Origin: Halopiger xanaduensis SH-6
Lineage (GTDB): Archaea; Halobacteriota; Halobacteria; Halobacteriales; Natrialbaceae
DNA: 64,000 nucleotides
Reading direction: 5' to 3'
Assembly: GCF_000217715.1 (NCBI RefSeq)
Contig: NC_015666.1
Location: 1,066,270 to 1,130,269 of the forward strand
The first letter of the stretch is position 1. Every line of letters starts with the position of its first letter. This document shows positions 29,566-47,579 of this stretch, piece by piece. Below the pieces are notes generated by a model. It ran no database searches. It saw only the letters and a program-made list of their open reading frames with translations, and was not told the DNA's origin. A program made the position numbers and the translations under genes.

Positions 29566-29735
29566 CGTCCTGACGAGGGTTTAGATATAGAAGACATCAG
29601 CTTCGCTTCGCTCGCGGTTTGGTAGCAGCAGAAACGTCCTGACGGAGTCTCACGCGAACGAAGTGAGCGTGAGGCACGTCAGGACCGAACGCAAGAGCAG
29701 GCGCTGAGTAATGCGAAGCGCCTGCGATAAGTGAG
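29566..29735 (-). repeat. tRNA-Arg 3'-end-derived palindromic repeat array
   Basis: Downstream of tRNA-Arg (leftward on this strand). A 13-base copy of the tRNA end (T-stem 3' strand, acceptor 3' strand, discriminator) lies at 29635-29647, a 10-base copy at 29566-29575, and an inverted 9-base copy at 29677-29685. Hairpin stems: CTCACGC (29649-29655) with GCGTGAG (29667-29673), loop GAACGAAGTGA; and GCAGGCGCT (29697-29705) with AGCGCCTGC (29717-29725). Direct and inverted tRNA copies alternate around the hairpins. Spacings between direct copies are 101 and 69 bp. Confidence 0.8.
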
Positions 29736-29808
29736 CGTCCTGACGGAGATTTGAACTCCGGTCCCTGGCTCCGCAAGCCAAGAGGATAGTCCACTACCCT
29801 ATCAGGAC
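29736..29808 (-). tRNA. tRNA-Arg (GCG)
   Basis: A full cloverleaf on the minus strand: acceptor GTCCTGA with TCAGGAC, discriminator G, anticodon stem TTGGC/GCCAG around loop TTGCGGA giving anticodon GCG, and T-arm CGGAG TTCAAAT CTCCG. CCA is not encoded. It reads CGC codons. Its 3' flank carries a palindromic array built from copies of its own 3' end. Confidence 0.95.
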
Positions 29809-39697: not shown

Positions 39698-40123
39698 ATG
39701 GGCAACAAGAACAAGACGATCTCGTTTCGCGTCAACGAGGACGCGTTCGAATCGCTCCAGGACATCGCCGAGGAGCGCGACATCTCGTTGTCCGCGGTCT
39801 TCCGTGACTACGTCGACCAACTCGTCGAACACGACGGGCAGGTCGCGGTCGTGCCGGAGGACGAACTCGGCGCCGGCCCGGCGACCGGCGACGCTGAGGA
39901 CGGCGAGGGCGAAGACCTCTCCTTCCCGCCGACAGTCGAAGTCCCCAAGAGCTTCATCCGCGAGCACGAGCGCCTCGAACTCGAGGCGGACCACCTCCGG
40001 GAACAACTCGACGAGTACAAGTCCTACGTGACCGAGCTCCAGGACCGCCTCGAGGACGAACAGGACGAGGTGCTGTTGCTCGACGAACTCGACGAGGACG
40101 ACGAATCGTATCCGCTCCGATAG
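39698..40123 (+). CDS. Ribbon-helix-helix DNA-binding protein with coiled coil
   Basis: 141 residues. The N-terminal MGNKNKTISFRVNEDAFESLQDIAEERDISLSAVFRDYVDQL is a CopG/MetJ-type RHH module (strand TISFRV, two helices). After an acidic linker, the C-terminal FIREHERLELEADHLREQLDEYKSYVTELQDRLED is a coiled coil of about 40 residues. The protein is likely dimeric, with the coiled coil mediating further contacts. It is divergent from the dioxygenase pair. I found no toxin partner next to it. The ATG at 39698 is preferred over a GTG six bases upstream. Confidence 0.82.
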   Translation: MGNKNKTISFRVNEDAFESLQDIAEERDISLSAVFRDYVDQLVEHDGQVAVVPEDELGAGPATGDAEDGEGEDLSFPPTVEVPKSFIREHERLELEADHLREQLDEYKSYVTELQDRLEDEQDEVLLLDELDEDDESYPLR

Positions 40124-40129
40124 TCTGGG

Positions 40130-40585
40130 CTACCGCGCGAGATCTCCCTTCGCCCGCCGAATCTCGTCTCGCTTCTCCGATTCGCCGTCGACCCGCGCGA
40201 GTCCCTCGGCCGCCTCGAGCGTTCGAACCGCGTCGTCGAGGAACGAGAGGACGTCGCCGGGGTAGGCGTAGACCATGTAGTCGTCGGTCATCACGTCGAC
40301 GATCGCGTCCGGGCCGAGCCCCTCCGCGCGCAACTCGAGGAGGTAGCGAATGAACTTGCGTTCGGGGCAGCCGCAGTAGGGGTTGTTGTCGCAGCTACAG
40401 TCGAGGAAGTCGCTCGAGAAGTCGAGCACCCGCTCTTGGGTCGCGTCGTCTAACTTCTCGAGGCCGTCCCCCTGAAAGAGCATGTCCAGCGTCGCCCCCT
40501 TGAACGCCCCTTTCGGGATGTTGGTCTCGAGCTGGGAGCTCAACTGCTGGTGATTCTTGACGTAGATCTTGTCGGTGATGGCCAC
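40130..40585 (-). CDS. DUF5814-like conserved protein with Cys-rich motif
   Basis: 151 residues from a GTG (VAITDKIYVKNHQQLSSQLETNIP). The region FSSDFLDCSCDNNPYCGCPERKFIRYLLELR contains five clustered Cys residues (CSC..CGC), suggesting a bound metal, and is followed by GLGPDAIVDVMTDDYMVYAYPGDVLSFLDD. I recall this sequence type as the stand-alone DUF5814 protein related to the C-terminal part of archaeal helicase-like proteins; that identification is from memory. A role in nucleic-acid handling is possible. Confidence 0.75.
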   Translation of the reverse strand: MAITDKIYVKNHQQLSSQLETNIPKGAFKGATLDMLFQGDGLEKLDDATQERVLDFSSDFLDCSCDNNPYCGCPERKFIRYLLELRAEGLGPDAIVDVMTDDYMVYAYPGDVLSFLDDAVRTLEAAEGLARVDGESEKRDEIRRAKGDLAR

Positions 40586-40762
40586 GCGTTGACGGGTATA
40601 GGATCGGACTCCCGAAAAGCGTCTCGGTCGAGATTTCCGTTGCCAGAGTGTGCGCCGCATACGACGGCGCGACTCGAGGGTGGCCCTGTTCCGGTTTCTC
40701 ACGGCGTTTCGCGAGTCGTAACGTATTTCAGTTCGACCGGTCCTACATAAGCACGCAAGCGT

Positions 40763-40835
40763 GTCCGGGTTGGGGTAGTGGTTATCCTTCAGCCTTGTGG
40801 AGGCTGAGACGCGGGTTCGATTCTCGCACCCGGAC
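40763..40835 (+). tRNA. tRNA-His (GTG)
   Basis: Acceptor TCCGGGT pairs with ACCCGGA, with the His-specific extra G(-1) at 40763 paired to C73 at 40835. Anticodon stem AGCCT/AGGCT around loop TGTGG-type sequence gives anticodon GTG. T-arm GCGGG TTCGATT CTCGC. No CCA encoded. Its 3' flank starts immediately with a hairpin and contains two further degraded copies of its own T-arm and acceptor end. Confidence 0.95.
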
Positions 40836-41092
40836 CTTCTGTGGCGAACAACTTTGTGAGCCACAGAAGTCGTCAGAGAATCGAATCAGGGAGCGACGCG
40901 AACGAAGTGAGCGGAACGACCGTGGTTCGATTCTTGTACCCGGACTTTTTGCCGCGAGCAAATCCGTGAGCGGCGCAAATTCGACCGAGATCGAACCGTA
41001 GCCAGACGGTCGATCTCACTCCGTTCGGCCGCTGCGACTGGCAGGGTTCGATTCTCGCACCCGGCCGTTTTGTGACGAGCAAACCGGCGAGT
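40836..41092 (+). repeat. tRNA-His 3'-end-derived palindromic repeat array
   Basis: Direct copies of the tRNA segment T-stem to base 73 lie at 40921-40945 (20 of 25 matches) and 41042-41066 (22 of 25). Inverted copies: GAGAATCGAA at 40876-40885 (exact) and GAGATCGAACC near 40987. Hairpins: TTCTGTGGC (40837-40845) with GCCACAGAA (40860-40868), loop GAACAACTTTGTGA; GCCGC with GCGGC near 40951-40974, loop GAGCAAATCCGTGA; and a third after the last copy with loop GAGCAAACCGGCGA. GAACGAAGTGA occurs at 40900-40910. Spacings are 110 and 121 bp. No gene is supported in 40836-41234. Confidence 0.85.
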
Positions 41093-41234
41093 CGCAGGTA
41101 TCGTCAGAACGGGCCTCGAGGCGGCGCGATGATGGTGCGGCCGTCGTACCGACGAGTCGAGGTCGGCTTGCGTATCGAGGGCGGCGGCGTAGTCATGCCC
41201 TCGCGTTTAGACGGGGCGTCTCGTACCGACGGGT

Positions 41235-42530
41235 ATGGCGGACGTTCGGCGCGGTGCGCGGCGCGAGGAGCCGAGACGGAACGCGGCGCTGGCGTGGCTC
41301 GTCACGATCGTCCTCGTCGTGCTGGCGATCGGCCACGGCGGGACGGGCTCGTACCGCTGGTTCGCCTTCACTATCGCCGCGGTCGCGATCGTCATGCTTC
41401 CGGTGATCGCGCGCCGCGATCCGCTCGCGATGCCGCCGTGGACGCTGTTGGCGCTCGTGCTCCTGCCCGTCGTCCACGCGACGGTGCTCGGCGAGTCGTT
41501 CCTGACGACCGTCGAAACGTACGTCGCCGTCGCCGCGATCGCGCTCGTCGCGGTCGTCGAGATCGACCGGTTCACGGCGGTGCGGATGAACCACGCCTTC
41601 GCGATCGCGCTGGTCGTCCTGACGACGTTGGCCGCCGCCGGCGCGTGGAACGTCGCCCAGTGGGTCGCCGACGTGACTCTCGGGACCGACTACATCCTGA
41701 CGGGCCGATCGGAGGACGTGGCCAACCGCGCGATGATGATCGACTTCGGCTACGCGGCAGTTTCGGGCCTCGCGGCCGGCGTCCTCTTCGATCGCCTCTT
41801 CAAGACGTACTCGGAACCGGCTTCCGAACGATCGCCGACGACCGAGGGGGCGGTGCCCGACACCGGTTCCGAATCCGATCCAGTCCCGCCGCTGCTTCGC
41901 GATCGGCTGGACGTCCCCGACGAGATCGTTCGCCGCCTCGCTCGAGTCATGCAGGTCGCGCTCGCGGGGATCTTGCTGTACGGCCTCGTCGCGCGGGACC
42001 TGCCGACCGTCGCCAACGCCGCCATCGCGCTGGCGATCACCTTCCTGCCCGCCGTTCTCGAGCGCGACGCTCGCCTCCCGCTCGAGCCGGGGGTCGTCTT
42101 CTGGCTGACGGCGGCCGTCTTCCTCCACGCGCTGGGCTCGGCCGGGTTCTACGGACTGATCGGGCAGTGGGACAGTCTGACGCATACGATGTCGGCTTCG
42201 GTCGTCGCGGCGGCCGGCTACGCGGTCGTGCGGGCGATCGATCTCTACACCGACGAGGTTCACTTCCCGCCGGCGATGTTGTTTACCTTCATTCTCGTCT
42301 TCGTCCTCGCCTTCGGCGTCGTCTGGGAACTCTTCGAGTTCGGCATCGACTGGAGCGCGCGGGTGCTCGGCATCGATGCGGTCGTCTCCCAACACGGCCT
42401 GAGCGACACGATCGTCGACCTCGTCTACGACGTCGTCGGCGCCGTCGTCGCGGCGGTCTGGGGGTCGTTCTACCTCACCGACCTCACGCACCGTCTCGCC
42501 GGCCGACTCGAGAGCGAAAACAGCGGGTAG
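41235..42530 (+). CDS. Multi-TM membrane protein, DUF2238-like
   Basis: 431 residues with about eleven hydrophobic helices in two blocks separated by a polar loop (SEPASERSPTTEGAVPDTGSE). The C-terminal block has GQWDSLTHTMSASVVAAAGYAVVRA and FILVFVLAFGVVWELFEFGIDW with the HT, WE and D..YD residues (DTIVDLVYDVVGAVV). These match the DUF2238/YjdF-like membrane family, of unknown function. The N-terminal block shares a weaker form of the same pattern (MNHAFAIALVV.., MMIDFGYAAVSGL), so it may be an internal duplication. Cytoplasmic membrane. Confidence 0.75.
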   Translation: MADVRRGARREEPRRNAALAWLVTIVLVVLAIGHGGTGSYRWFAFTIAAVAIVMLPVIARRDPLAMPPWTLLALVLLPVVHATVLGESFLTTVETYVAVAAIALVAVVEIDRFTAVRMNHAFAIALVVLTTLAAAGAWNVAQWVADVTLGTDYILTGRSEDVANRAMMIDFGYAAVSGLAAGVLFDRLFKTYSEPASERSPTTEGAVPDTGSESDPVPPLLRDRLDVPDEIVRRLARVMQVALAGILLYGLVARDLPTVANAAIALAITFLPAVLERDARLPLEPGVVFWLTAAVFLHALGSAGFYGLIGQWDSLTHTMSASVVAAAGYAVVRAIDLYTDEVHFPPAMLFTFILVFVLAFGVVWELFEFGIDWSARVLGIDAVVSQHGLSDTIVDLVYDVVGAVVAAVWGSFYLTDLTHRLAGRLESENSG

Positions 42531-45860: not shown

Positions 45861-45977
45861 TCCGGGTTTGAACCACGCGAACACGGTCGCTCGCGGCGCT
45901 CGCACTGCGTGTTCTCTAGTTCAAATTCGTTCGGCGTCGTTTCTGCGCCTCCTCACTTCATCCGTCGCCGCAGAATA
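45861..45977 (-). repeat. tRNA-Phe 3'-end-derived palindromic repeat unit
   Basis: Downstream of tRNA-Phe on its own strand. TTCTGCG (45941-45947) and CGCAGAA (45969-45975) form a 7-bp stem that begins 2 bases from the tRNA's discriminator, with GATGAAGTGA in the loop on the tRNA strand. Further away a degraded direct T-arm copy, TTTGAAC at 45867-45873, faces an inverted copy GTTCAAA at 45919-45925. They enclose GAACAC (45879-45884) and GTGTTC (45909-45914). It is the most degraded of the four arrays. The rest of 45724-45860 shows nothing recognisable. Confidence 0.7.
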
Positions 45978-46051
45978 TGCCGCCTCCCGGATTTGAACCG
46001 GGGACAGCTCGATCTTCAGTCGAGTGCTCTCCCAGTCTGAGCTAAGGCGGC
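45978..46051 (-). tRNA. tRNA-Phe (GAA)
   Basis: Acceptor GCCGCCT with AGGCGGC, discriminator A, anticodon stem CTCGA/TCGAG with loop CTGAAGA giving anticodon GAA, and T-arm CCCGG TTCAAAT CCGGG. No CCA encoded. Two bases past the 3' end, a TTCTG-type hairpin starts. Confidence 0.95.
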
Positions 46052-47164: not shown

Positions 47165-47505
47165 CGGCTCGGGCGGGTTCGAACAACGCGAAGACGGTCG
47201 CTCACTGCGTTCGCGCCGTCTTCTCTCGTTCGAATCGCCCTCGGCCACGTATCCGTTGCTCTCGAGTTTGCTCGCAGTGGGAACTGGGCTCGGGCGGGTT
47301 CGAACCACGGTCGGAGCAAGCTCCTCCCTGATTAGAACCTGCCCTCAGATACATTTCTGTGGCTCACGCGTTGTTCACCACAGAAATGGGCTCGGGCGGG
47401 TTCGAACCACCTGAACTTCGCTCGCTGTCGCTCGCTCGTTCCGTCGTTCGAACCGCCGCTCGCATCACGATACTGTCGCTCACGAGTTGTTCGCGACAGA
47501 AGTAG
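47165..47505 (-). repeat. tRNA-Val 3'-end-derived palindromic repeat array (best preserved)
   Basis: Three direct copies of the tRNA-Val end: 47387-47411 (25 of 25 bases: T-stem, T-loop, acceptor strand and discriminator), 47285-47308 (24 exact) and 47166-47184 (19 exact). Starts are spaced about 102-120 bp, like the distance to the tRNA itself. Inverted degraded copies lie near 47448-47464, 47332-47344 and 47229-47247. Hairpins: CTGTCGC (47473-47479) with GCGACAG (47493-47499); TTTCTGTGG (47354-47362) with CCACAGAAA (47378-47386); GAAGACGG (47190-47197) with CCGTCTTC (47216-47223). Loops on the tRNA strand contain GAACAACTCGTGA, GAACAACGCGTGA and GCGAACGCAGTGAG. Confidence 0.9.
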
Positions 47506-47579
47506 TGGGCTCGGGCGGGTTCGAACCACCGACCTCGGCCTTGTAAAGGCCGCGTCATGACCAGCTAGACCACGAGCCC
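47506..47579 (-). tRNA. tRNA-Val (TAC)
   Basis: Acceptor GGGCTCG with CGAGCCC, discriminator A, anticodon stem CGGCC/GGCCG with loop TTTACAA giving anticodon TAC, and T-arm GGTGG TTCGAAC CCGCC. No CCA encoded. Six bases after the discriminator begins a hairpin, followed by three copies of the tRNA's own 25-nt end. Confidence 0.95.

Follow-up and report, generated by a model that had tools for sequence, protein, structure and literature searches.

The 3' ends of tRNA genes are the usual archaeal attachment (att) sites (PMC8371274), and islands of Haloquadratum are flanked by duplications of 22 nt of tRNA-Ala and 43 nt of tRNA-His (PMC3119063). The casposase of Aciduliprofundum boonei likewise targets a tRNA 3' end, where it reads a TCAAATC motif and duplicates the 14-15 bp lying 8 bp beyond that motif (PMC6614799). 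Haloquadratum also carries dispersed repeats of REP-like or palindromic type as well as small mobile repeats, which form short, non-coding multicopy families (PMC3119063). Archaeal intrinsic terminators include T-stretches, such as the T5C stretches that terminate transcription in Haloferax volcanii (PMC7237163).

Behind the tRNA-His gene of Halopiger xanaduensis SH-6 lies an array that resembles each of these systems in part. As in the att duplications of tyrosine integrases (Haloquadratum GI3, SNJ2), partial copies of the tRNA 3' end are found downstream of the gene, but here they are 20 nt long, start at T54, recur every ~120 nt with hairpin cores and inverted T-arms, and have no element between them. 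The array shares its short palindromic, non-coding and multicopy character with the Haloquadratum repeats, but it is tied to tRNA 3' flanks, keeps one orientation and has ends that match the local tRNA. T-runs like those of archaeal terminators start many of its hairpins at the tRNA 3' end, whereas terminators lack inverted and direct copies of the upstream tRNA end. Integron attC sites are inverted-repeat hairpins ending in GTT that stand in a row beside an anchor site. In sequence pattern and strand bias a similar row of inverted-repeat hairpin sites ending in GTT is found here too, with the tRNA as anchor, but unlike integron cassettes the units carry no genes and no integrase is encoded near tRNA-His. 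No Rfam family other than the tRNA itself matches positions 40000-42000, and no report of such a module was found in the open-access literature searched; on these negatives it appears undescribed.

The array occupies positions 40,763-41,092 of the window, the whole 64,000-nt stretch of DNA that was analysed (GCF_000217715.1, NC_015666.1, 1,066,270-1,130,269). It is built of copies of tRNA positions 54-73 (P), hairpins (T), inverted T-arm copies (P') and core hairpins (C), in the order P-T-P'-C-P-T-P'-C-P-T downstream of tRNA-His, the first core belonging to family A and the second to family B (Table 1). Positions 54-73 of tRNA-His (40816-40835) are the template of every P copy in the array. 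Core A, with GAACGAAGTGA at 40900-40910, forms an extended hairpin together with P'1 and P2. Core B sits between inverted repeats of only ~8-12 bp (ATCGAACC/GGTTCGAT); in genome G001 of the same genus it lies the usual way round and the array has one unit fewer.

Table 1. Positions in the window of the tRNA-His array and of related units behind other tRNA genes.
Feature	Position	Strand	Source
tRNA-His (GTG), G-1 to C73	40763..40835	+	ARAGORN (gives 40764-40836), Rfam RF00005, sequence
T1, perfect 10-bp hairpin with GA...GA loop, directly abutting C73	40836..40869	+	sequence, repeat search, folding
P'1, inverted T-loop/T-stem copy GAGAATCGAA, 100% complementary	40876..40885	+	repeat search
Core A (TCAGGGAG...GAACGAAGTGA...CGACCGTGG), normal orientation	40886..40925	+	model R2, 1.9e-17
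P2, direct copy of tRNA-His 54-73, 18/20	40926..40945	+	repeat search, flank parsing
T2, T-rich start and GA...GA hairpin	40946..40979	+	folding, GA-loop search
P'2, inverted T-arm copy GAGATCGAA	40987..40995	+	sequence, flank parsing
Core B, inverted relative to tRNA-His	40996..41046	-	model R1 match on minus strand, 9.6e-21
P3, direct copy of tRNA-His 54-73, 19/20	41047..41066	+	repeat search, flank parsing
T3, GA...GA hairpin	41067..41098	+	repeat search, folding; also kept in same-genus G001 (L111)
Three more units behind tRNA-Val (47505-47579, minus)	47173..47504	-	G000:C3:1113442-1113725, core models, flank parsing
One unit behind tRNA-Phe (45978-46051, minus), P copy degenerate	45862..45930	-	G000:C3:1112131-1112199
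Two GA-loop hairpins behind tRNA-Arg (29735-29808, minus)	29647..29725	+	L104; weak R1 match, E 0.087

The alternation of direct and inverted tRNA-end copies with hairpins, as described in the original prediction, is real and non-random by repeat search, shuffling and folding, and both the exact 10-base inverted T-arm copy and the direct copies were confirmed. The perfect 9-bp hairpin placed at 40837-40868, one base beyond C73, does exist as a stem, but it is 10 bp long and no base separates it from C73. Three loops of exactly 14 bases are likewise present as quoted and are better read as GA...GA loops with two inner base pairs (AC/GU, GC/GU and GC/GC). T1 folds with -20.8 kcal/mol (z -5.8; none of 200 shuffles folded as well) and the whole 330 nt with z -4.5; T2 and T3 folded alone are only modestly better than shuffles (z about -1.6). 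In the predicted 330-nt fold the 5' acceptor strand of the tRNA pairs with P2 and not with its own end. Among 900 shuffled downstream flanks of tRNA genes of this genome, the best match to the tRNA 3' end reached 16 of 22 positions once and 17 never. GA-loop hairpins number eight in the 64-kb window as compared to 0-3 per shuffle, and six of the eight lie within tRNA 3' flanks. They were also considered as general 3'-UTR terminators, a role rejected on finding 12 in 400 kb sampled against six in the flanks of three tRNAs of the window.

Decay of the copies with distance, which had been proposed to record the order of events, was not supported. P3 (19/20) is better preserved than P2 (18/20), and over 88 units the identity of P averages 18.83/20 for copies of rank 1 and 18.80/20 for those of rank 2, nearly equal values on which a monotonic decay was rejected. 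In the 20 arrays with at least two units the first P copy is better in 8, equal in 10 and worse in 2, a weak and non-significant tendency. The hairpin may affect RNase Z processing of pre-tRNA-His, since T hairpins abut many mature 3' ends.

What the original prediction had missed is that the array is not specific to tRNA-His but is a module of many tRNA genes across Halobacteria, and that its second core is inverted. Conservation in relatives was examined by a DNA search of 40 of them, and homologous arrays are present behind tRNA-His in nearly all. The stretches between P copies also match many other places in these genomes. Twenty such places were fetched: 19 have a tRNA close by (Val, Arg, Glu, Asn, Ile, Leu, Ser, Thr or Gln), with unit ends that match the T-arm of the adjacent tRNA in each case, and the twentieth lies further along an apparent tRNA-Val array. 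Species whose tRNA-His carries the variant TTCAATTCTC (L006, L008, L022) have the same variant in the copies. P and P' thus match the local tRNA (His, Val, Leu, Ser, Arg and others), and the cores are common to different tRNAs.

In this genome 13 of 45 tRNA genes are followed by a copy of their own 3' end with 18-22 matches of 22, a count that leaves out neighbouring tRNA genes (two formal matches are neighbouring tRNA-Asp genes). The genome G066 of another haloarchaeal family has P copies behind 15 of 30 sampled tRNAs, nine of them at 20/20. Such copies are absent upstream of the 45 and 30 tRNA genes, respectively. A non-haloarchaeal genome of the phylum, taken as outgroup, gave three matches, each of them to a complete tRNA gene nearby. 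The module is lacking at about half or more of the tRNA genes. The two hairpins behind tRNA-Arg in the window lie on the opposite strand from their tRNA, flanked by inverted and direct copies that are confined to its acceptor end, and form a variant of the module; this is the second local irregularity of the window, beside the inverted core B.

A degenerate core-A pattern searched in 84,980 named species gave 17 matches, all in Halobacteria or haloarchaeal bins. All 17 are on the strand of a tRNA, lie 43-208 nt behind it and are followed by that tRNA's own P; 16 of these tRNAs were called by ARAGORN and one, an intron-bearing tRNA-Met, was read by eye. The core-B covariance model matches 51 of 53 haloarchaeal genomes and none of 241 other genomes of the phylum. 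Among the best 30 core-B loci a tRNA is nearby in 29 and on the same strand in 28, while 24 further matches, lower in the list, are all behind a tRNA on the same strand; the 53 checked loci with a tRNA lie 35-435 nt from it. Taken together, 69 of 70 checked cores of families A and B share the strand of their tRNA, the sole exception being the inverted core B of the window; both the core pattern and the model include T-arm-like ends, which biases them to units with such ends but not to strand or nearness to a tRNA. GA-loop hairpins show the same asymmetry and occur on the sense strand only in 59 spacers, on both strands in one and on the antisense strand only in none. The core patterns were not found in plasmids or phages, and in viral contigs they gave only three chance matches inside coding sequence.

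Parsing of 110 tRNA flanks, a sample enriched for matches, yielded 90 units at 68 tRNAs with a median period of 121 nt, in arrays of one to three units; the 90 include two false units, a neighbouring tRNA-Asp gene and an acceptor-only case at tRNA-Arg. The P copies begin at the T-loop (position 54) regardless of the preceding base; 37 of 90 are identical to the tRNA over 20 nt and 58 have at most one change. Many T hairpins start with TTTTTC. The clearest core families are A (TCAGGGAGTGAAGCGAACGAAGTGAGCGGAACGACCGTGG) and B (CCCTGCCAGTCGCAGCGGCCGAACGAAGTGAGGCCGACCGTCTGGCTNCGG). Most cores have a loop layout of GA, two base pairs, a GNA triloop (65 of 93 three-base loops) and a closing GA. Whole units have been gained or lost between the window and G001, and near-identical tandem units are found in L119 and L120. 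With these data the presence and the anatomy of the module are practically certain.

Two further palindromic features were seen. Past the fourth and last P of L112 (G016:C2) a stretch opens with TTTCCGGTGGTGTTTAGT and later has ACTAAACACGGCAG just before another T hairpin; it may be an independent palindromic insertion in this array. A B-like hairpin (GGAAGTCGCAGC..GCGAACGGAGTGAGC..AACGTCTTCC) followed by a T-run is found at L188 (G000:C3:1151113-1151185) and L190 (G000:C3:1915309-1915378), where it ends a longer dispersed non-coding repeat that starts near GGGGAAGGGCAGGC and is not linked to tRNAs. Pieces of this repeat recur in 19 of 26 genomes searched, and it has no match in Rfam.

Core B displays the compensatory stem changes expected of a structured RNA family. 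Eight base pairs have double changes (29 cells), 97.9% of cells pair, and the covariation score of 0.292 compares with 0.112 in shuffled alignments (0 of 500 as high) and at most 0.097 in slid ones. The outer stem follows the local tRNA copies; the inner helices 2 and 3 covary too. Changes in P' are biased by strand: A>G, which keeps a G-U pair on the tRNA strand, is seen in 24 of 145 cases and T>C, which makes an A-C pair, in 3 of 159 (p 7e-6, an indicative value only because the units are not independent). Base composition does not account for this bias, as both changes raise G+C. There is no strand bias between C>T (8/109) and G>A (14/187) in P'. In the stems G-U against A-C counts are 19 to 8 for T and 15 to 20 for C. 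Mean core identity within and between genomes is 0.657 and 0.644 for B, and 0.718 and 0.814 for A, where numbers are small; cores are slightly more alike at the same tRNA across different genomes. A recent MITE-like spread was rejected since cores from one genome do not resemble each other more than cores from different genomes do. The module has probably descended slowly and in part vertically, with no recent burst.

The reading tentatively preferred, plausible though far from assured, is that the array is one case of a native, haloarchaea-wide, sense-strand structured trailer module of tRNA genes that acts in RNA. Judged from the sequence patterns, its folding seems to matter on the transcribed strand. 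The module would act within the primary transcript, where T, often with a T-rich start and exactly at the mature end, may help to terminate transcription or to define the 3' end. In read-through RNA, P'-C-P would form a second hairpin masking the spare tRNA 3' end, and the transcript would then meet another T. If left exposed, the spare 3' end could compete for the 5' acceptor strand of the tRNA; an exposed P2 could be harmful, as the 330-nt fold pairs it with that strand. Recombination between P copies would add or remove whole units, and either copying or selection would keep P matched to the tRNA. Pairing alone does not explain P, because the conservation of P extends over the acceptor end although P' is degenerate there; the identity of this acceptor part to the tRNA without a good P' partner suggests copying at the DNA level. 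GNA triloops are very stable in DNA, and their frequency in the cores means that folding of single-stranded DNA may also be involved.

The known use of tRNA 3' ends as att sites and the island duplications of Haloquadratum make scars of integrated plasmids, viruses or islands a candidate, and integrase genes do lie downstream of three tRNAs in this genome. The tRNA-Glu locus (L266) carries a true integrated element of ~16 kb (G000:C3, about 631800-647730) whose tyrosine integrase of 350 aa adjoins the far-end att, an exact 15-nt repeat of the tRNA end. Directly beyond this far repeat, 16 kb away, the displaced old trailer still has its T hairpin, P' and core together with a degenerate P, so that the module at tRNA-Glu predates the element and is not its scar. 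The boundaries differ as well, P being 20 nt from T54 and the tRNA-Glu att 15 nt from about position 59. The left end of the element (TGCGAAGACTATTGTTTTAGGGC) is present once more past the displaced trailer, which suggests that a related element had inserted at tRNA-Glu earlier. A probable second element is found at L263 (G000:C3:2231788-2247360), a tRNA with downstream integrase genes whose 3' end is repeated over 12 nt at a distance of 15.6 kb; neither end has the trailer module. No core was found at distal element ends, with all 53 tRNA-linked B cores at most 435 nt away and nothing element-sized between, and tRNA-His has no integrase nearby, so that the scar explanation is largely refuted and very improbable. 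A CRISPR-like origin, in which a casposase or Cas1-like integrase duplicates its target site, is harder still to credit. The array does resemble a leader-repeat-spacer arrangement and the A. boonei enzyme shares the tRNA 3' end as target, but P is 20 nt long and includes the T-loop motif, unlike a 14-15 bp target beyond the motif, and the spacers are a few recurrent hairpin families with no captured DNA.

Site-specific DNA recombination, with the T-loop as attachment site, the units as tiny cassettes and a recombinase that reads the folded P'-C-P hairpin in loose analogy to integron attC sites, is unlikely but the most serious competitor. It would account for the start of P at position 54 whatever base precedes, for the turnover of whole units and the near-identical tandem units, and for the inversion of core B between repeats shorter than ordinary homologous recombination needs; hairpins that are strand-specific and have conserved mismatches also fit recognition of folded single-stranded DNA. 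Against it, the units of about 120 nt contain no gene, no cognate recombinase and no moving unit were found, 52 of 53 B cores have one orientation, the B identities within and between genomes argue against recent spread, and no core was found in viral contigs, plasmids or phages. A bolder proposal, in which the tRNA genes of haloarchaea are the anchors of a dedicated recombination system whose hairpin cassettes would recognise the T-loop as attachment site on one folded strand, insert next to the tRNA and rebuild its 3' end, the inverted core B being a mis-event caught in the act, is decidedly improbable. A functionless by-product of template switching at the palindrome of the tRNA end during replication or repair, combined with REP-like dispersed palindromes, is improbable as well. 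Template switching yields hairpins between alternating direct and inverted copies, L119 and L120 show evident tandem duplication, and the B-like hairpin does occur in the dispersed repeat of L188 and L190 away from tRNAs; yet the order-wide presence, the core families common to different tRNAs, the covariation and the strand bias all need constraint.

A conserved non-coding module that copies the end of whichever tRNA precedes it is found throughout an archaeal order. Action in RNA, as is tentatively preferred, would make it a new level of archaeal tRNA 3'-end formation, and action in DNA a recombination system anchored on tRNA genes. The copies are also a trap for annotation, as they may be taken for att sites of prophages or for fragments of tRNAs. 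Either way the module bears on the role of tRNA genes as hot spots of integration.
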